NCBI RefSeq assembly: GCF_015350805.1
Contig: NZ_JADKSG010000002.1
Coordinates: 1,426,001 to 1,490,000, forward strand
Source of the DNA: Herbiconiux sp. VKM Ac-1786
GTDB taxonomy: Bacteria; Actinomycetota; Actinomycetes; Actinomycetales; Microbacteriaceae
Reading direction: 5' to 3'
Length of the DNA stretch: 64,000 bases
Below, in pieces: positions 8,019 to 35,146 of this stretch (its first letter is position 1; every line of letters begins with the position of its first letter). The notes beneath the pieces were generated by a model. It had not been told where the DNA came from and did no database searches. It saw only the letters and a list, made by a program, of their open reading frames with translations. The position numbers were made by a program, and so were the translations under genes.

Positions 8019-8354
8019 CTAGAGCGAGACCAGGCTCAGCGAGACCACCGACACCACCGCGAAGCCGACGGCGAAGACGACTGCCCGCTCCCAGGTGCGG
8101 AGCGTCCGGCCGACGAGGAGCGCCACGAGGTACACCACGATGGGCACCACGGCATAGCCGATGATCAGCGCCCAGAGCCCGGTGTCGGGCGAGGTGCCGT
8201 AGCTGTTCAGCAGCGAGACGACGCCGATCAGGTTCGCCAGCCCGCCCCACAGGTGGTACGCGTACAGGAACGCGAAGATCACCGCGACCGCCCAGCCGGA
8301 CTTGCCGAAGGTGCGGAACCCGCGCTTGGGAGCGACCGGCGCCGCGGCGGTCAT
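8019..8354 (-). CDS. small membrane protein, function unknown
   Basis: A 111-residue protein starting MTAAAPVAPKRGFRTFGKSGW, with three hydrophobic segments (about residues 21-48, 60-80 and 88-111). Its ATG overlaps the stop of the next upstream gene (ATGA), so the two are co-translated. No catalytic motif is visible. The pair looks like a conserved two-gene membrane module; I cannot assign a function. Confidence 0.7.
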   Translation of the reverse strand: MTAAAPVAPKRGFRTFGKSGWAVAVIFAFLYAYHLWGGLANLIGVVSLLNSYGTSPDTGLWALIIGYAVVPIVVYLVALLVGRTLRTWERAVVFAVGFAVVSVVSLSLVSL

Positions 8355-25835: not shown

Positions 25836-27212
25836 CTAGCCGATCGGCGTCCAGCTGCTCGGGCCCTCGCTGCCGGCGGGGTACTCGTCGAGCGGCACCT
25901 CGTCGGCCTTCCAGGCCGCGATCACCGGCGCCAGGATGCGCCAGCCCTCGACCGCGGAGTCACCGCGCACGCCGAGCGTCGGGTCGCCGTCGAGGATGCC
26001 CGCGAGCACCTCGCGGTACGCCAGCAGCTGCCCGTCGCCGAACGTGGCCTCGAGGCTCGCGCGCTCGAGCTCGTAGGGGTCGCCCGGACCGTTGATGTCG
26101 ATCTCGAGCGACATCGCGTCGGGGGCGAGGAAGATGCGCAGCACGGTCGGCGAGCTCACGCCCGTCAGCCCCACCGGCACCTGCTGCGCCGGCTTGAAGG
26201 TGATCACGATCTGACGGCGGCGCTCGCCGATCGCCTTGCCGGAGCGCAGCGTGATCGGAACGCCCTTCCAGCGCCAGGTCTGCACCTCGAGCGTCACCTC
26301 GGCGAGGGTCTCGGTCTCGCGCGCCGGGTCGACCCCCTTCTCGTCCGCGTAGCTCGGCAGCTCGCGGCCGTCGATGGTGCCGGCGGAGTACCGGGCGCGG
26401 CGGCTCGACTCCTTCGGGTCGTCGCCCCAGACGTGGGTCGCGCGCAGCACGAGCTCCTTGGCGTCGCGGAGGTCGTCCTGGCCGAGGGTCGACGGCGGCT
26501 CCATGGCGAGCACGGCCATGACCTGCAGCAGGTGGCTCTGGATCATGTCGACCAGGGCGCCCGCGGTGTCGTAGTAGCCGGCGCGGCCCTCGAGGGCGAG
26601 CTGCTCGTCGTAGACGACGTCGATCTTCGCGATGTGCTCGGAGTTCCAGAGCGGCTCGAAGATGCGGTTCGCGAAGCGCAGCCCGAGGATGTTGAACACC
26701 GTCGACCGGCCGAGGAAGTGGTCGACCCGGTGCACCTGGTTCTCGGGCACCAGCTTCGCCAGCTCGCCGTTCAGCGCCTGGGCGGTCTCGACGTCCATGC
26801 CGAACGGCTTCTCGAGCGCGAGGGTCAGCCCGTCGGGGATGTCGACGCCCTGCAGTGTGGTGACGACCTTGGCGGCCACCGCGGGCGGGAGCGCGAAGTA
26901 GATGGCGGGGGTGCCGGTCGCCATGCCGAGCAGCTTCGTGAGCGCCCCGGCGTCGGTGACGTCGGCCTTGACGTAGCGGGTGCCGGCGAGCAGCTTCTCG
27001 ACGGCGGCGCCCTTCGCGTGCACCTGGGCGAAGGAGTCGGTGACGACCTTCCGCCACTCCTCGTCGCTCCACTCGGCGCCACCGGCCCCGATCAGCGTGA
27101 GCGTGCGATCGGGCTGTGCGGTCAGCAGCTGGGCGAGCCCGGGGAGCAGGAGGCGGGCCGTGAGGTCTCCGCTGGCTCCGAAGATCAGGAGCGTGTCGAC
27201 ACGTTGCGTCAT
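25836..27212 (-). CDS. zwf: glucose-6-phosphate dehydrogenase family protein
   Basis: A 458-residue NAD(P)-dependent dehydrogenase of the G6PDH family, which oxidises glucose 6-phosphate to the lactone. The coenzyme motif LLIFGASGDLTARLLLP is at the N terminus. The substrate helix reads HRVDHFLGRSTVFNILGLRFANRIFEPLWN, and YYDTAGALVDMIQSHLLQ supplies the catalytic histidine. The usual DHYLGKE lysine is replaced by arginine (DHFLGR). The gene stands alone, without opcA, tal or tkt, so it may be a paralogue with altered kinetics or substrate. The ATG at 27212 fits a leaderless promoter. Confidence 0.85.
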   Translation of the reverse strand: MTQRVDTLLIFGASGDLTARLLLPGLAQLLTAQPDRTLTLIGAGGAEWSDEEWRKVVTDSFAQVHAKGAAVEKLLAGTRYVKADVTDAGALTKLLGMATGTPAIYFALPPAVAAKVVTTLQGVDIPDGLTLALEKPFGMDVETAQALNGELAKLVPENQVHRVDHFLGRSTVFNILGLRFANRIFEPLWNSEHIAKIDVVYDEQLALEGRAGYYDTAGALVDMIQSHLLQVMAVLAMEPPSTLGQDDLRDAKELVLRATHVWGDDPKESSRRARYSAGTIDGRELPSYADEKGVDPARETETLAEVTLEVQTWRWKGVPITLRSGKAIGERRRQIVITFKPAQQVPVGLTGVSSPTVLRIFLAPDAMSLEIDINGPGDPYELERASLEATFGDGQLLAYREVLAGILDGDPTLGVRGDSAVEGWRILAPVIAAWKADEVPLDEYPAGSEGPSSWTPIG

Positions 27213-27568
27213 GGCTCTCACAGTATCGCCCCGCCCTGCTCCCGCAACGCCCTCTCCCGGAGGACACAGCTGCGACGGCGCGGAGGATGGATGTGCAGAA
27301 GAGGAGGGATGTGCAGAAGATGACGGGAGGAGGCGACCACCCGAAGGCCGCCCCCACCCGTCGGTCATCGCGCGATCGCCCACCACCCCGAGCTGACGAT
27401 TGAACGGGGCTCTGCCGGCCTCTGCCGGCGACGACCGCGCCGGTGATGACCCGGCGTGATGCCTCTGCCATTCTGCGCGGCGACCCGACCGGGGTGTGAT
27501 GAGTAATCGCTACTCCACTTCGCACCCCGGCGCGCCGCGCCTTCCCGTCACTCCCCGTGACTCCCTTG
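27213..27568. other. 356-bp intergenic region between zwf and the LuxR gene
   Basis: No convincing gene. On the minus strand a -10 box TACTGT (plus 27220-27225) ends seven bases before the zwf ATG. GGATGTGCAGAAGA occurs twice, at 27289-27302 and 27307-27320, 18 bases apart. TCTGCCGGC occurs twice in tandem near 27411-27429. A copy of the LuxR-linked palindrome lies at 27501-27515. The region could hold a longer zwf regulatory leader or a small RNA. Confidence 0.6.
27501..27515. promoter_or_regulatory. GAGTA-N5-TACTC palindrome, copy A
   Basis: GAGTAATCGCTACTC, preceded by GGTGTGAT. It is the same dyad as those upstream of the LuxR gene (30466-30480) and of the septum-formation lipoprotein gene (31400-31414). 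It lies 54 bases past the 3' end of luxR and 289 bases upstream of zwf. Confidence 0.65.
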
Positions 27569-30427
27569 TCACTCCCCCGTCAGCGAGTACTCCTCGTACG
27601 GGTTCTCGAGCTGCAGCGCGCTCAGCTCGGCCGCGAGCTCCCGCCGGCTGGCGATGCCCAGCTTCTTGTAGATGCGCGCCAGGTGGTTGTCGACCGTCCG
27701 CACCGAGATCCCGTACTCGGCGGCGAGCTCCGCGCTGGTGCGGTGCGCCGCCGCCCCCGACGCGAGCTGCCACTCCCGGTCGGTCAGCGGCATGACCCGC
27801 GGATGCGTCTGCCGCCGCCGATGCGCCATCGCCACCCCCGCCCGCACCGTCCACGAGTCGGCCAGCCGATGCGCCCGCGAAGCCCGCACGAGGTCGCCGT
27901 CGCAGTGGTCGGCCGCCCAGCGCGCCGCGTCGATCGCGGGCCCGAGCAGCCCCGCCTCGCCGAGCTCCTTCGCGATCGGCAGCACGTCGTTCCGGGCGAT
28001 CACGGCCCGCGCGTGCGACTCGCAGATCGGGAACGCGCTCCGCGCCGCGATCAGGTGCGGCAGCATCACCGTCGCCCCCACCACCGGCTCGATGCGCACG
28101 GCCTCGTACGCCACGAGCGCCGCCAGGTACCGCTGCCCGCCGTCGGCCGCCTTGTGCAGCGCCGGCCCGAGGCTCCGGATGGCGAACCCCGGCCGCCCCG
28201 CCGACGCCGACACCCAGGCCCGCGCCAGCGACGCGTACAGCTCGACCTTGGGGTCGCGCACCTCGGCCGGCGTGAGCTGGTCGAGCCAGCTCCGTGCGAT
28301 CGCGAACCGGCCCGTGCGGGCGGCGATCGCCGCCGAGAGCGCGTCGGCGGTCGGCAGCAGGCCGGCGATGTCCCGCCAGATGAGGTCGCGCCGCCCCTCC
28401 TGGATGTACTTCCACGCCCGCGCCGGCGACCCGGTGTGCAGCTCGATCATCGCGAGCGCGAACTTCCACATGCCGCGAGCGCTGGGGTTCGATTCCTCCG
28501 CGCGGGAGAGGTTGGCGCGAGCGGCGGCTCGAGCATCCGGGAACCTCGCCGTGAACGAGAGCACCAGCACCTCGCTCAGCTGCAGCAGGTCACGGGCGTT
28601 GGGCAGCACGTCGCGGAAGCGGTCGCACTCGGCGAGCCCCCGCTCGACCGCCTCTCCCGCGAGGGTGAGGTTGCCGCCCATCGTGTGCAGCGTGGCCGTG
28701 AGGATGAGCAGGTTGAGGTCGGCGGGCGTCTCGACCGGCCCGAGCACCGAGATCGACTCCAGCTCGGTCGAGAGGCCCTGCCCGGCCATCAACCGCCACT
28801 TGACCAGGTCGGACTCGACGAGCGCGCGCAGTGCCGGGTCGCCGATGTGGGCGAGCACCGGTTCGACCCGGGCCACCGCGAGCTCGGGCTGCAGCGTGCG
28901 GAACGCGAGGTGGTTGCCCTCGGCCTGGGCGAGCTGCGCGAGGAAGAGCTCGGGCGCGTCGGCCCCCGCCTGCTCGACGGCGCGCCAGGCGGCCGCGAAG
29001 AACTCGCTGGCCTCGCGGATGCGGCCGATCTGCGACAGCGCCTGCGCCCGCACGTACTCGCCGGTGGCGCGCAGCACGGGCTCGGCCGTTCCGCCGGCGA
29101 CCGCGTGGGCGCCGAGCGTGATGGCGGTGGAGTAGCGCTGCTCGCCGAGCTCCCGCCGGGCCAGCTCGAGCAGGGTCGGCGCGGCGACGGGCTGCCCCGC
29201 CGCGAGCTGCAGCAGCGAGCGCCGCACCACGTGCTCGGGGTAGCCGTCGAGCATGTCGGCGCCGGCGGCCGAGAACCCGGGCAGCTCGGCCTCCGAGACG
29301 GTGGTGCGCATCACGGGGGCGAAGAGCGGATGCGCGAACCCCACCCACACGCGCCCCTGACCCGTGCGCGTCCGCACGTACCCCTGCGCCTCGGCCAGCC
29401 GCGTCGCCCGGGCGCTGACGCCCGACGTGCCGCCCTGCTCGACCGGCAGCTCGCCGGCCACCGCGAGCAGCGCGAGGAGGTCGCCGACGAACTCGTCGGC
29501 CGCCAGCGGATCCACGGGGAGCGAGGCGACGACACCCTCGGACAGCACCGTCCACGCGGTGCGCCACTCCCCCGCGTCGTCGGCGAGGTCGCACACGCCG
29601 ACCGCGGCCTCGGCCAGCTCGACGAGGGTGCGCGTGCTCCCGGCGGCCAGCCGCACCATCTCGTCGGCGGCGGCGGCGCCGATGCTGCGGCCGAGCCGGT
29701 CCTTCACGATCGCGTGGGCGTCGGCCGCCGACAGCGGCGGGAGGTCGACCACGACTCCGGCGTTCCGCCAGAACACGCCGGCGTCGGCTGCTGCTGCTGC
29801 CCCGTCGGGTTCGGCTGCCTCGTCGATGCCGGACGGAGCGGCCACGCTCGCGCCGCGGGTGTCGGTGCCGGTGCCGGTGGCCGTGTCGGTGTCGGTCTCG
29901 GCGGCGGACCGCGAGGCGCCGCCACGGCGGCCTCGGGTGGCGCCGGGGAGCTCGCGGGTGGCCTTCGCCACGAGCACGGAGGCCTGGCCGCCGTCGACGA
30001 TCTGCTCGAGCAGGCAGCGGCTGGCGGAGTCGAGGTGGTCGGCGTCGTCGACGACCAGCAGGATGCCCGGCTCGTTCATCGCGCGGTGGAACTCCACCAC
30101 GGCGGTGCCGTCGCCCGCGCCGACCGGCAGCACGGCGAGCACGGGGGCCAGCGCGCCGAGCGGCACGTTCCGCAGATCGGACCGTCCGCGGACGACGTGC
30201 ACGGCGCGCTCGGCGCCGACGGCCTCGACCACCGCGTCGAGGAACGCCGTGCGGCCGACGCCGGGCCGCCCGGTGACGAGCACGACGGATCGCCGGCCGG
30301 AACGGGTGAGGGCCGAGACCGTCTGCGCGAAGGCGCGGTCGCGGCCGTGCAGGCGATGACCGCCCTGGGCGAAGAGGGCCTGCTTGGTGCTGCGCGACGT
30401 CGGAGTCGCGCCGGTTCGAGGTGCCAT
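27569..30427 (-). CDS. LAL-type LuxR family transcriptional regulator
   Basis: A 952-residue regulator. The ATG at 30427 has AAGGAGAA upstream. Residues 45-160 form an AAA/STAND-like ATPase region with Walker A GRPGVGRT (53-60) and Walker B GILLVVDDADHLD (121-133). The Walker A lysine is replaced by arginine (R59). A long helical, TPR-like sensor region follows, interrupted near residues 165-210 by a low-complexity Thr/Asp/Gly insert (DTDTATGTGTDT). The C-terminal LuxR helix-turn-helix reads LTDREWQLASGAAAHRTSAELAAEYGISVRTVDNHLARIYKKLGIASR. A 17-residue tail rich in Glu/Tyr ends it. It has a palindrome 39 bases upstream of its start, suggesting autoregulation. Confidence 0.88.
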   Translation of the reverse strand: MAPRTGATPTSRSTKQALFAQGGHRLHGRDRAFAQTVSALTRSGRRSVVLVTGRPGVGRTAFLDAVVEAVGAERAVHVVRGRSDLRNVPLGALAPVLAVLPVGAGDGTAVVEFHRAMNEPGILLVVDDADHLDSASRCLLEQIVDGGQASVLVAKATRELPGATRGRRGGASRSAAETDTDTATGTGTDTRGASVAAPSGIDEAAEPDGAAAAADAGVFWRNAGVVVDLPPLSAADAHAIVKDRLGRSIGAAAADEMVRLAAGSTRTLVELAEAAVGVCDLADDAGEWRTAWTVLSEGVVASLPVDPLAADEFVGDLLALLAVAGELPVEQGGTSGVSARATRLAEAQGYVRTRTGQGRVWVGFAHPLFAPVMRTTVSEAELPGFSAAGADMLDGYPEHVVRRSLLQLAAGQPVAAPTLLELARRELGEQRYSTAITLGAHAVAGGTAEPVLRATGEYVRAQALSQIGRIREASEFFAAAWRAVEQAGADAPELFLAQLAQAEGNHLAFRTLQPELAVARVEPVLAHIGDPALRALVESDLVKWRLMAGQGLSTELESISVLGPVETPADLNLLILTATLHTMGGNLTLAGEAVERGLAECDRFRDVLPNARDLLQLSEVLVLSFTARFPDARAAARANLSRAEESNPSARGMWKFALAMIELHTGSPARAWKYIQEGRRDLIWRDIAGLLPTADALSAAIAARTGRFAIARSWLDQLTPAEVRDPKVELYASLARAWVSASAGRPGFAIRSLGPALHKAADGGQRYLAALVAYEAVRIEPVVGATVMLPHLIAARSAFPICESHARAVIARNDVLPIAKELGEAGLLGPAIDAARWAADHCDGDLVRASRAHRLADSWTVRAGVAMAHRRRQTHPRVMPLTDREWQLASGAAAHRTSAELAAEYGISVRTVDNHLARIYKKLGIASRRELAAELSALQLENPYEEYSLTGE

Positions 30428-30464
30428 GGTGGGTTCTCCTTCTCAGACGCCTGGGCTGTGCGCC

Positions 30465-30481
30465 TGAGTAGGTTCTACTCA
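30465..30481. promoter_or_regulatory. GAGTAG-N3-CTACTC palindrome, copy B (luxR promoter)
   Basis: TGAGTAGGTTCTACTCA: perfect 7-bp arms around GTT. It lies 38-54 bases upstream of the LuxR start, in the promoter or 5' leader. This is the most extended of the three copies. Confidence 0.75.
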
Positions 30482-30515
30482 CAATTTCGACCCCGCATCG
30501 GGCGTTTCGACGCGA

Positions 30516-30581
30516 TTACGTAGCCCCGACCCCCGCGTTACGTAGCCCCCACCCCGCCACTCAGTAGCCGACCGCCCCGGG
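30516..30581. repeat. three 22-bp direct repeats upstream of the LuxR gene
   Basis: TTACGTAGCCCC begins at 30516 and again at 30538, exactly 22 bases apart; a degenerate third unit, CTCAGTAGCC, begins at 30560. The 22-bp period is two helical turns, so the same face of DNA is presented each time, as for cooperative activator sites. The block lies about 90-155 bases upstream of luxR and before the tRNA terminator. Confidence 0.65.
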
Positions 30582-30630
30582 CCCCTCTTCGCCCTCTCCC
30601 CCGCGCCGTGCGGGAGAGCGCGCTTAACGA

Positions 30631-30662
30631 CGAAACCGCCCGGTGAGGACCGGACGGTTTCG
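30631..30662 (-). terminator. terminator of tRNA-Lys
   Basis: CGAAACCGCCCGGT at 30631-30644 pairs with ACCGGACGGTTTCG at 30649-30662 over GAGG, with one mismatch, directly after the tRNA 3' end on the minus strand. Confidence 0.75.
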
Positions 30663-30665
30663 ATG

Positions 30666-30741
<76 letters not shown>

Positions 30742-30855
30742 GTGGCTCTTGGTGAGCCAGTCGACAACATTAGCATGCTCCGGCGAGGTTCGCGAACCAG
30801 GGTCGCGCACCCCGCCGGAGACCGTTCGGGAGTCCCGGATCGGGGCGCGGAGGGA

Positions 30856-31362
30856 TCAGATCGCGGCGTTCTCGACCGTGCCGGTGAGCTTGCCGGCGGG
30901 GTCGTAGACGAGGCAGACGACCGTGCGGTCGTCGAGCTCGTTCCACGAGTCCTCGGTGGGTGTGAGGTACTGCACGTCGAGCTTCGAGTCGTCGTAGCCG
31001 AGGCCGACGAACTCGCCCATGGCCGCCGCGCAGGCCTCCTGCGCCTGGGAGTGCACGGCGTCATCGCCCGGGTACTCCCCCGGGTCGAAGTCGAACGAGG
31101 TGAACGCCTCGAAGTCGTGTGGGCCGGCGCAGTCGACGACCGGGAGCTCCGTGACGTTCTCGTCGTCGGTGTCGTCGACGCAGTCGCCGGGTTTGACCGT
31201 GAAGACGTCGGTCTTCGTTCCGGGGTCGGCCGCCTGGGACGTGCCGGGGTCGCCGACGGCGCGGGTGGGGTCGGACGTGCCGCCGCCGGCACAGCCGGTG
31301 AGGGAGAGCACGAGGGCTGCCGCTACGGCGGCCAGGGCGAGAGGTAGGGATCGGATTGTCAT
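30856..31362 (-). CDS. septum formation family lipoprotein
   Basis: A 168-residue secreted lipoprotein. The signal MTIRSLPLALAAVAAALVLSL ends in lipobox LTGC (Cys24), then a Gly/Asp/Thr linker. The folded part starts DVFTVKPGDCVDD and includes PVVDCAGPHDFEAFTSFDFD, EACAAAMGEFVG and TVVCLVYDPAGKLTG: four cysteines that can form two disulfides, the Septum_form (DUF4190-associated) pattern of actinobacterial proteins implicated in septation. The ATG at 31362 lies 38 bases from a copy of the LuxR-linked palindrome. It is divergent from bcp. Confidence 0.8.
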   Translation of the reverse strand: MTIRSLPLALAAVAAALVLSLTGCAGGGTSDPTRAVGDPGTSQAADPGTKTDVFTVKPGDCVDDTDDENVTELPVVDCAGPHDFEAFTSFDFDPGEYPGDDAVHSQAQEACAAAMGEFVGLGYDDSKLDVQYLTPTEDSWNELDDRTVVCLVYDPAGKLTGTVENAAI

Positions 31363-31399
31363 GGAGCCATGGTCGGGGCGAGCATCCGCTGGGTGTGAG

Positions 31400-31414
31400 G
31401 AGTAGTTGCTACTC
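31400..31414. promoter_or_regulatory. GAGTAG-N3-CTACTC palindrome, copy C
   Basis: GAGTAGTTGCTACTC, perfect 6-bp arms, preceded by GGTGTGAG as copy A is by GGTGTGAT. It lies between the divergent lipoprotein gene (38 bases away) and bcp (60 bases away), so it could control either. Confidence 0.75.
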
Positions 31415-33073: not shown

Positions 33074-34567
33074 CTAGGGTTTCTTCAGCCAGCGCGTCGG
33101 GATCTCGATCGTCACGACCGTGCCCGTGCCCACCATCGTGTGCCAGTCGATCGTGCCGCCGAGCTCGCCCTGGATGAGCGTACGCACGATCTGCGTGCCG
33201 AGCCCCGAGCCGACCTTGCCCTCGGGCAGGCCGGTTCCGCTGTCGCGCACCTCGACCGTGAGCGTCTCCTCGGAGCGCGACGCGACGATCTCGACCTCGC
33301 CCTCCTGCCCGGCCAGGCCGTGCTCGACCGCGTTGGTGACGAGCTCGGTCAGCGCCAGCGCGAGCGGGGTGGCGTACTCGCTCGGCAGCACGCCGAAGCT
33401 TCCGGTCGACTTGGGGTGCACCGTCGTGTTGTGCGCCGACGCCACCTCGGCGACGAGCAGCAGCACGCGGTCGAAGACGGTGTCGAAGTCGACGCGCTGG
33501 TTCAGGCCCTCGGAGAGGGTGTCGTGCACGACCGCGATCGCGGCGACGCGGCGCATGGCCTGGGTGAGGGCGTCGCGCGCCTCGTCCGAGTGGGTGCGGC
33601 GGGCCTGGATGCGCAGCAGCGACGCCACCGTCTGGAGGTTGTTCTTGACGCGGTGGTGGATCTCGCGGATCGTCGCGTCCTTCGTGATCAGCTCGCGCTC
33701 CTGGTGGCGCAGCTCGGTGACGTCGCGGGTCATCACGATGGCGCCGAAGCGGTGCCCACGAGTGCGCAACGGGATCGCGCGCAGCGACACCGTCACGCCG
33801 CGCGCCTCGATGTCGGTGCGCCACGGCGCGCGCCCGGTCACGACGAGCGGAAGCGACTCGTCGACGATCAGCCGGCCGGCGAGCAGCCCGGTCGTGACCT
33901 CGGCGAGCGACTGCCCCTCGAGCTCGCCCGCGAAGCCCATGCGGTTGAACGCCGACAGGCCGTTCGGGCTGGCGAAGGTCACGATGCCGTCGACGTCGAG
34001 CCTGATCAGACCGTCGGATGCGCGGGGCGCTCCGCGGCGCGGCCCGGTCGGAGCGCCGAGGTCGGGGAAGTCCCCCGCCGAGATCATCGCGAAGAGGTCG
34101 TTCGCGCACTCGTTGAAGGTAAGCTCCTGGCGGCTGGGGGTGCGCGCCTCGCTGAGGTTGGTGTGGCGGGTGATGACGGCGATGGGCCGCTCGGTCGTGG
34201 TCTGCTCGCTCACCGAGAGGCGACGGAGCACCGGGACGGCGCGGACGCGGGTCGGCGTCTCCTCGTACCAGTCGGGAGCGGCGGTGTCGACGATCTGGGC
34301 GCTCTCGAAGGCGTCGGTGACCTGCTTGCGCCACTCGGGCTTGATGGTCTGGCCGACGAAGTCGCGGTAGAACAGGGTCGCGGAGCTCGAGGGGCGCGAG
34401 TGGGCGACGGCCACGAAGGTGCCCTCCTGCGTCGGCACCCAGAGCACGATGTCGGCGAAGGCGAGGTCGGCCAGCAGCTGGCAGTCGCTGACGAGCAGGT
34501 GCAGCCACTCGACGTCGGCCTCCGTGGAACGGCCGTGTGTGGTGACGAGATCGCTGAGAGTTGACAC
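33074..34567 (-). CDS. pdtaS: PdtaS-type sensor histidine kinase
   Basis: A 497-residue soluble kinase. Residues 1-150 match the PdtaS N-terminal GAF-like domain (VTTHGRSTEADVEWLHLLVSDCQLLADL, then FYRDFVGQTIKPEWR). Residues 185-290 are a PAS domain (LDVDGIVTFASPNGLSAFNRMGF). The HisKA_2 box EIHHRVKNNLQTVASLLRIQ has the phosphoacceptor near H304, and the ATPase domain contains ALTELVTNAVEHG and GSGLGTQIVRTL. The partner in known systems is the RNA-binding antiterminator PdtaR, not encoded here. The GTG at 34567 sits at the leaderless distance from TAGGCT. It is convergent with whiB1. Confidence 0.9.
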   Translation of the reverse strand: MSTLSDLVTTHGRSTEADVEWLHLLVSDCQLLADLAFADIVLWVPTQEGTFVAVAHSRPSSSATLFYRDFVGQTIKPEWRKQVTDAFESAQIVDTAAPDWYEETPTRVRAVPVLRRLSVSEQTTTERPIAVITRHTNLSEARTPSRQELTFNECANDLFAMISAGDFPDLGAPTGPRRGAPRASDGLIRLDVDGIVTFASPNGLSAFNRMGFAGELEGQSLAEVTTGLLAGRLIVDESLPLVVTGRAPWRTDIEARGVTVSLRAIPLRTRGHRFGAIVMTRDVTELRHQERELITKDATIREIHHRVKNNLQTVASLLRIQARRTHSDEARDALTQAMRRVAAIAVVHDTLSEGLNQRVDFDTVFDRVLLLVAEVASAHNTTVHPKSTGSFGVLPSEYATPLALALTELVTNAVEHGLAGQEGEVEIVASRSEETLTVEVRDSGTGLPEGKVGSGLGTQIVRTLIQGELGGTIDWHTMVGTGTVVTIEIPTRWLKKP

Positions 34568-34807: not shown

Positions 34808-35146
34808 ACGCTCGCCGCGCGTCCGAGCGCGCGCGGGAGGCGCCCCCGCGGCCGCGTTTCCCTACGAAGCGACCGCGGGAGCAGTTTCATTCCGGCCGGG
34901 GCTGCGACAGTCGGGGGAACGGGGGCGCCCCGACCGGAAATCTGAACCTGTGTGGTTCCGAGAGACAGTCCACCATCCGGACGGGTGGGGGCGTTATGAG
35001 CAATTTCCACTCAGCGACGAACGCCGTCGGTGGAATTCCACAGGGCACAAACGCATCTGGACAAGCAATCTCGACACTGGTTGAGTACAGCCGCCGACAC
35101 CTTGTTGAGCAATGCTTACTTCAAGCATGCGGGCGAAAGGAGCAAC
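34808..35146. other. gene-poor region with inverted repeats
   Basis: No convincing gene. ATTCCGGCCGGGGC at 34889-34902 is complementary, with one mismatch, to 34927-34941 (24-base loop). GAACCTGTGTGGTTC at 34944-34958 is a small dyad. GAGCAATTTCCACTC at 34998-35012 resembles the LuxR-linked palindrome, but its arms are imperfect. GTGGAATTCCAC at 35030-35041 is a perfect 12-bp palindrome. These probably belong to the promoter/leader of the gene starting at 35147. Confidence 0.5.

Follow-up and report, generated by a model that had tools for sequence, protein, structure and literature searches.

The 64,000-nucleotide stretch of Herbiconiux sp. VKM Ac-1786 DNA analysed here (the window) contains luxR, a gene for a large LuxR-type regulator, and a short palindrome that recurs around it. 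Three copies of the palindrome had been described in an earlier note, and their places, their distances from start codons and a shared flank were all confirmed in the sequence. The first, GAGTAATCGCTACTC at 27501–27515, has one mismatch to GAGTAG-N3-CTACTC. The second, TGAGTAGGTTCTACTCA at 30465–30481, lies upstream of luxR, with 38 bases between the 15-mer at 30466 and the luxR ATG at 30427. The third, GAGTAGTTGCTACTC at 31400–31414, lies upstream of a lipoprotein gene whose ATG at 31362 is 37 bases away. The flank GGTGTGA is common to two of the three. A fourth site, beyond the three first noted, is present at 34993–35012 on the minus strand. The core features are as follows.

27496–27515, minus strand: putative operator of the predicted small RNA 1 promoter, GAGTAGCGATTACTC + ATCAC
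27569–30427, minus strand: luxR, 952-residue STAND/LAL-type regulator with an ATPase-like N-terminus, a helical TPR-like middle and a GerE helix-turn-helix (HTH) at residues 880–932
30465–30481, minus strand: luxR-upstream palindrome TGAGTAGAACCTACTCA, a distinct class
31395–31414, minus strand: putative operator of the lipoprotein promoter, GAGTAGCAACTACTC + CTCAC
34993–35012, minus strand: fourth putative operator, GAGTGGAAATTGCTC + ATAAC, at the predicted small RNA 2 promoter

We consider it probable, judging from the sequence comparisons described below, that the palindrome is the operator of the adjacent LuxR/STAND regulator, and that this regulator acts as an activator of surface-protein and small-RNA genes. 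The core idea of the earlier note, a LuxR regulon marked by the palindrome, is supported and enlarged. The main additions are that most of the predicted targets encode secreted proteins, of the CWB2 kind or others, at other places in the genome, and that the 27501 site appears to belong to a predicted small RNA gene.

Taken by itself, the window offers weak evidence for a common element, because at least three matches with up to two mismatches were reached in 6 of 100 shuffled windows. The analysis was extended to the 3.89-Mb genome of the source organism (labelled G000), to a comparison set of 16 Herbiconiux genomes, and to G040, a genome of another genus in which LuxR is 53% identical. The exact form GAGTANNNNNTACTC (GAGTA-N5-TACTC) occurs four times in the source genome, and its control, the pattern read backwards, does not occur; three of the four lie inside the window, within 3.9 kb of one another. 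An extended form, GAGTANNNNNTACTCATMAC, is clearly enriched, with 175 matches at up to two mismatches against 21 for the control (both strands, 16 genomes). In the source genome, GAGTAGNRANTRCTCATMAC has 12 matches at up to two mismatches and 15 at up to three, where the control has 5 at up to three. The extended sites are mostly intergenic; a random scatter inside genes, which by the earlier note would have refuted its proposal, was not seen.

A weight matrix was built from 33 sites in other genomes, which were chosen for the palindrome (up to one mismatch) and an ATMAC extension. The palindrome and ATMAC columns are conserved by construction, since both were selected in the training sites. 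The matrix also contained a −10 box, NANNNT, that was not selected for and that appears 25 bp after the palindrome. Scanning gave 83 site rows scoring at least 24 bits; one intragenic row without a −10 box was left out, and 38 training and 44 held-out sites were used, the latter being sites whose operator sequence is absent from the training set. NANNNT stands at the fixed spacing in 80% of the 44 held-out sites against a background of 2.1%. The working form in Herbiconiux is the palindrome, the ATMAC extension and a sigma-A-like −10 box at one fixed spacing. In 12 of the 83 sites an ATG coincides with the predicted +1; each other position between 48 and 59 has an ATG in two sites at most. Eleven of these twelve start plausible exported proteins, and several are mutually orthologous; the twelfth (L273) is probably accidental. 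Relative to the predicted +1, the palindrome occupies about −52 to −38, and there is no TTGACA-like −35 box. Activators that contact RNA polymerase commonly bind in this region, and the missing −35 box fits such a role. The element resembles the operator of an activator, with its centre near −45.

What follows the sites was then classified, after removal of two rows outside the clade (83 to 81 sites). The 81 sites were drawn from extracted loci of the luxR-bearing genomes, G014 and G040, not from a complete genome scan, and the 13 small RNA 1 sites among them entered mainly through luxR. The targets are 38 CWB2 genes, 22 non-coding blocks, 6 lipoprotein genes, luxR itself in one case (G040) and 14 others, where the CWB2 class is a sequence signature and secretion was judged by eye. 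The non-coding targets comprise 13 copies of small RNA 1, 6 of small RNA 2 and 3 of an orphan conserved hairpin. Signal-peptide-like starts were seen by eye in 12 of the 14 others. The 12 sites of the source genome precede five CWB2 genes, the two RNAs of the window, the lipoprotein gene, the gene of an Ig-like surface protein, two genes for further exported proteins and the orphan hairpin. All five CWB2 targets match PF04122, and their sites score 31–38 bits. The source genome also shows a striking CWB2 expansion, with 96 repeat matches in about 32 genes and open frames of up to 2036 codons.

One predicted target in the window is the lipoprotein gene, with the following features.

30856–31362, minus strand: Septum_form-family lipoprotein (PF13845), predicted regulon target
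31369–31374, minus strand: −10 box GACCAT of the lipoprotein promoter, with the predicted +1 at the A of the ATG at 31362

The earlier note had proposed that LuxR controls the lipoprotein or bcp. The orientation of the site and its −10 box both point to the lipoprotein, which agrees with the first proposal, and bcp was ruled out as a target on the same two grounds. The promoter is predicted to be leaderless, with the ATG at +1. The similar distances to the ATG at luxR and at the lipoprotein gene have different reasons, because the lipoprotein promoter is predicted leaderless and the luxR site has no −10 box at that spacing where it was scored. In locus L218 (8211–8480), an operator precedes a different short leaderless lipoprotein-like open reading frame at the place of the Septum_form lipoprotein; given this translation, a short leaderless lipoprotein, the row at 8211 was reassigned from the luxR to the lipoprotein class.

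The luxR gene was found in 15 of the 16 Herbiconiux genomes, in one of them (G009) spread over two contigs. Seven further loci with luxR at about 62–89% identity are from Herbiconiux (L214–L219) and 'Microbacteriaceae bacterium 3FA27C10' (L220); an eighth, L221, is from 'Corynebacterium-like bacterium B27'. The palindrome is present upstream of luxR in all 15 Herbiconiux orthologues (14 exact, and G006 with a spacer one base shorter). It is also present downstream in all 15; compared with GAGTA-N5-TACTC, eight copies are exact, six have one mismatch and that of G001 has two. In G040 palindromes lie both upstream and downstream. The motif is therefore present at the luxR orthologues, where its absence would have counted against the earlier proposal. 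Among 199 family genomes, five had a strong luxR orthologue (E below 1e-200), and one more had a weaker match, a homologue at E 3e-47. The five carry 2–9 extended sites each at up to one mismatch and zero control matches. Of the other 194, 18 have one extended match each and 12 have a control match, so that two or more extended sites occur in exactly the five genomes with a strong orthologue. Seven of the nine outside extended matches that reached the later scan lie inside predicted genes. The HTH (residues 880–935) is the most conserved 56-residue window of LuxR, with 43 invariant positions against 279 of 952 overall in 15 sequences. The claim that LuxR owns the motif gains from the sites on both sides of the gene, the co-occurrence and the conservation of the HTH, and LuxR is likely the binder of the operator. 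As a separate observation, the luxR stop codon TAG lies within the downstream operator in L040, L041, L044, L045, L046, L049 and L311.

The C-terminal GerE HTH of LuxR is recognized by PF00196 (E 4.6e-11, residues 880–932). At the N-terminus, AAA_16 scores just above its cut-off (33.5 vs 32.6 bits), and there is a Walker B-like VVDDAD motif. In each of the 15 aligned sequences an arginine stands in place of the Walker A lysine (GxxGxGR), which makes the use of ATP uncertain. The AlphaFold2 model (mean predicted local distance difference test 71, predicted template modelling (TM) score 0.50) is helical from about residue 380 to 867, with an ATPase-like N-terminus of low confidence and a confident HTH. 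The best PDB match to the model is 6mfv, a STAND-TPR protein, with an E value of 3.8e-6 and a low TM score. Full-length similarity to MalT is absent: the NCBIfam MalT model gave 21.8 bits against a cut-off of 537, in the HTH region only.

The site upstream of luxR is built differently from the others. In the six Herbiconiux-group loci where the site passed the threshold, no −10 box stands at the spacing (scores −5.7 to −11.6). Its core AACCT is invariant among Herbiconiux loci. A second conserved element of the luxR promoter lies further upstream.

30517–30545, minus strand: two CTACGTA direct repeats, 22 bp apart

The repeats are 42 bp, start to start, from the palindrome. This distance is fixed in 15 of the 16 Herbiconiux genomes, and G040 has a near match. 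At up to one mismatch, the pair occurs only before luxR (15 of 16 genomes) and at one further place in G001; at two mismatches it is not above the control. A second regulator of luxR perhaps binds at this pair. The palindrome itself may be a feedback site over the luxR promoter, and the feedback would probably be repression. Autoregulation, which the earlier note had proposed, is plausible.

Several observations weigh against reading the palindrome as the operator of LuxR. The training sites had themselves been chosen for ATMAC. At one mismatch, the source genome shows no enrichment of the bare palindrome (36 vs 55 control), and the exact palindrome is enriched only about twofold over the 16 genus genomes (78 vs 37 control). 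About 32 CWB2 loci exist in the source genome and 27 of them carry no site; their best upstream score is −1.8, and no site of at least 18 bits was found across these whole loci. The five co-occurring genomes represent two genera and only one or two independent events. G014, a 92% complete Herbiconiux genome, has 13 matches to the extended pattern and no luxR. It also has no close orthologue of the glucose-6-phosphate dehydrogenase (G6PDH) gene next to luxR (best 47% identity) and no CTACGTA pair. Since the orthologue of the luxR-adjacent gene and the pair are missing as well, the absence of luxR in G014 is likely an assembly gap. Among 22 more distant homologues, several with truncated flanks, an exact GAGYA-N5-TRCTC lies within 350 bp in only two: upstream in L222, and in L311 as a 17-bp palindrome that spans the luxR stop. 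The distant loci have four such sites per 135 kb, and about 0.4 would be expected by chance; with two seen, these homologues give weak support.

The same observations on G014 and on the two genera would suit another transcription factor of the same lineage that binds the sites, with luxR merely one of its targets. A site-flanked gene can itself be a target, and the luxR promoter has the second conserved element, the CTACGTA pair. However, the sites flank luxR on both sides in every orthologue of two genera, and the HTH is the most conserved part of the protein. WhiB and PdtaS, the other regulators nearby, are widespread in Actinobacteria and for that reason would not explain the narrow distribution of the sites. 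We regard a different factor as rather unlikely.

The site at 27501 reads leftwards, and behind it is a hairpin with a CCUUCGGG loop, U-rich after the hairpin in several species. We propose that this site is the promoter element of a predicted small RNA gene, small RNA 1.

27470–27475, minus strand: −10 box CAGAAT of the small RNA 1 promoter at the fixed spacing
27318–27463, minus strand: predicted small RNA 1, about 145 nucleotides, predicted +1 at 27463
27392–27405, minus strand: near-invariant loop of small RNA 1, UUCACUCGUCAGU class, here GUUCAAUCGUCAGC
27322–27362, minus strand: terminator-like hairpin of small RNA 1, with a U-tract that is weak here and better in several relatives
27220–27225, minus strand: own −10 box TACTGT of the G6PDH gene (25836–27212), predicted leaderless

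Sixteen homologues of small RNA 1 were aligned (15 from Herbiconiux and that of G040). Compensatory changes were found in 19 of 31 consensus pairs, a number reached in 0 of 500 shuffles, and slid controls gave 6–9. Paired cells and the covariation score were likewise reached in 0 of 500 shuffles, and further pair types in 41 of 500. The window sequence scores 120 bits against the model, in which it is included. Pairing holds in 95% of cells for the GAUCAUC/GAUGAUC helix and in 97% for the terminator hairpin. The motif UCGUCAG is present in 15 of the 16 homologues and forms an open apical loop in 13 of 16 minimum-energy folds; the 5′ hairpin is also seen in 13 of 16. Folding z values are −4.6 to −6.4 in the six homologues tested. 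The terminator-like hairpin is found in all 16, with a variable U-tract. A search of Rfam with window stretches and six loci, covering RNAs 1 and 2 and the orphan candidate 3, placed only tRNA above the gathering score.

Small RNA 1 lies directly upstream of the G6PDH gene in the 16 loci read. This arrangement, together with the poor U-tract after the hairpin in the window, would be expected if the conserved structure were a leader or attenuator of the G6PDH mRNA and not a separate RNA. However, a terminator-like hairpin stands between the two, followed by U-rich sequence in several relatives, and a conserved TACTGT-like −10 box belonging to G6PDH itself lies just before the ATG. A leader of this kind appears unlikely. 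The own −10 TACTGT and the predicted leaderless start set G6PDH apart from small RNA 1, and with the intervening hairpin they led us to reject G6PDH as the target of the 27501 site. The G6PDH gene adjoins luxR in 16 loci, and G006 and G009 carry a second homologue of 35% identity.

A second predicted RNA follows the fourth site.

34967–34972, minus strand: −10 box TGGACT of the small RNA 2 promoter, weak
34838–34960, minus strand: predicted small RNA 2, a C-rich loop on a GC stem followed by a terminator-like hairpin, +1 at 34960

Small RNA 2 is a conserved non-coding block after the 34993 site in six aligned sequences. RNAalifold found compensatory changes in 7 of 32 pairs, each of them within the 3′ hairpin. 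The fold of G040, judged by eye, has a different but still complementary stem in place of the loop-bearing one. Folding z values are −3.7 and −4.1 in the two sequences tested. The PdtaS gene (33074–34567) comes next; it starts with GTG and has a −10-like TAGGCT of its own. It was rejected as the target of the 34993 site because this −10 box lies beside a leaderless-looking start and a terminator-like hairpin stands between. A possible third small RNA is the hairpin at L265 (source genome, C1:1815092–1815111), where an operator and −10 box precede a hairpin that has C-rich loops and is conserved among three close species. No downstream open reading frame was found there on the strand of the operator. 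The letters barely vary, so covariation cannot be judged. In a target search by duplex energy, in which the RNA loops were paired with 219 gene starts from the extracted loci of the source genome, nothing scored better than shuffled loops. By these comparisons, small RNA 1 is strongly and small RNA 2 moderately supported as an RNA family.

The architecture also bears on two readings without a DNA-bound activator. The element could be the promoter of an alternative sigma factor, with the palindrome and ATMAC as its −35 region. The fixed spacing to the −10 box would fit, as would ATMAC near the expected −35 place, its conservation being partly due to selection. Yet the −10 box looks like an ordinary one (NANNNT, in many cases AGAAT or AGGAT). 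The palindrome, located upstream of −37, retains a dyad symmetry for which sigma factors have no need, and luxR has the palindrome without a −10 box. We find this very unlikely. It is barely credible that the palindromes act as RNA hairpins, as a luxR terminator at 27501 and leader hairpins elsewhere: the 27501 site does lie 53 bp past the luxR stop and inside a further inverted repeat, but the predicted +1 places the palindromes upstream of the transcripts, no U-tract follows at 27501, and the GAGTA/TACTC letters are kept and not swapped for other pairs.

Under the activator reading, LuxR would bind at about −52 to −38 in sigma-A promoters that are weak and have no recognizable −35 box. Bound LuxR would turn on the genes of CWB2 proteins, of other secreted proteins and of lipoproteins, as well as two or more operator-driven small RNA genes, of which one lies directly behind luxR. 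At the differently built palindrome upstream of luxR, it would feed back on its own promoter, probably repressing it. The sequences themselves show the conserved sites with a −10 box at its fixed spacing, the classes of targets, start codons at the predicted +1, the covariation of the RNAs and the co-occurrence with luxR; LuxR binding, activation, the sign of autoregulation and the roles of the small RNAs are what we infer beyond them. A broader picture, to which we give somewhat less than an even chance, is that a clade-specific STAND-LuxR sensor runs a surface-coat programme. A single signal would turn on a coat of species-variable CWB2 proteins along with two or three dedicated small RNAs that have conserved seed loops. 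These RNAs would retune other mRNAs during the change of coat, and luxR, the feedback site and the operator-driven RNA gene behind luxR would be inherited as a compact module.

The LAL regulators MalT and Streptomyces SCO0877/SCO7173 share with LuxR a TPR-like middle and a C-terminal GerE HTH, and also a large N-terminus, whose ATPase-like character is borderline in LuxR. In contrast to these, the predicted regulon here comprises small RNAs and surface proteins instead of genes for sugar uptake or antibiotics; the Walker A lysine is an arginine, and the operator is a 15-bp palindrome. The abstract of PMC3282765 calls the LAL family poorly studied. Among sites of the NarL/LuxR-type HTH, the NarL heptamer TACYYMT is matched by the half-site TACTCAT found here. 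Unlike in NarL sites, the halves are in the opposite arrangement with 5 bp between them, and the Pfam search of LuxR reported no receiver domain. The LuxO-Qrr system of Vibrio is a regulator and small-RNA circuit, in which LuxO is not known to be a LuxR-HTH protein. By analogy, it too ties a regulator to small RNAs with a conserved loop. CWB2 (PF04122) proteins follow nearly half of the 81 sites, yet only 5 of the about 32 CWB2 genes in the source genome have the operator.

A literature search of limited reach, over titles and the starts of abstracts, returned nothing on the motif, the regulon or the RNAs, and no regulator or motif for CWB2 in Microbacteriaceae. PMC10011130 does not mention LuxR, a regulator, small RNA or surface, and has cell wall only in a reference. 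The analysis yields a motif, a candidate regulator, a promoter architecture to the base and two RNA families, one with strong and one with moderate support. Direct tests of surface remodelling, and of small RNAs controlled by a LAL-type regulator, become possible in an environmental genus.

A similar palindrome was seen between the DUF4193 and DUF3071 genes in L028, L103 and L110; we take DUF3071 to be SepH-like. These palindromes lack a −10 box at the fixed spacing and were left out of the regulon. They perhaps represent another class of site.

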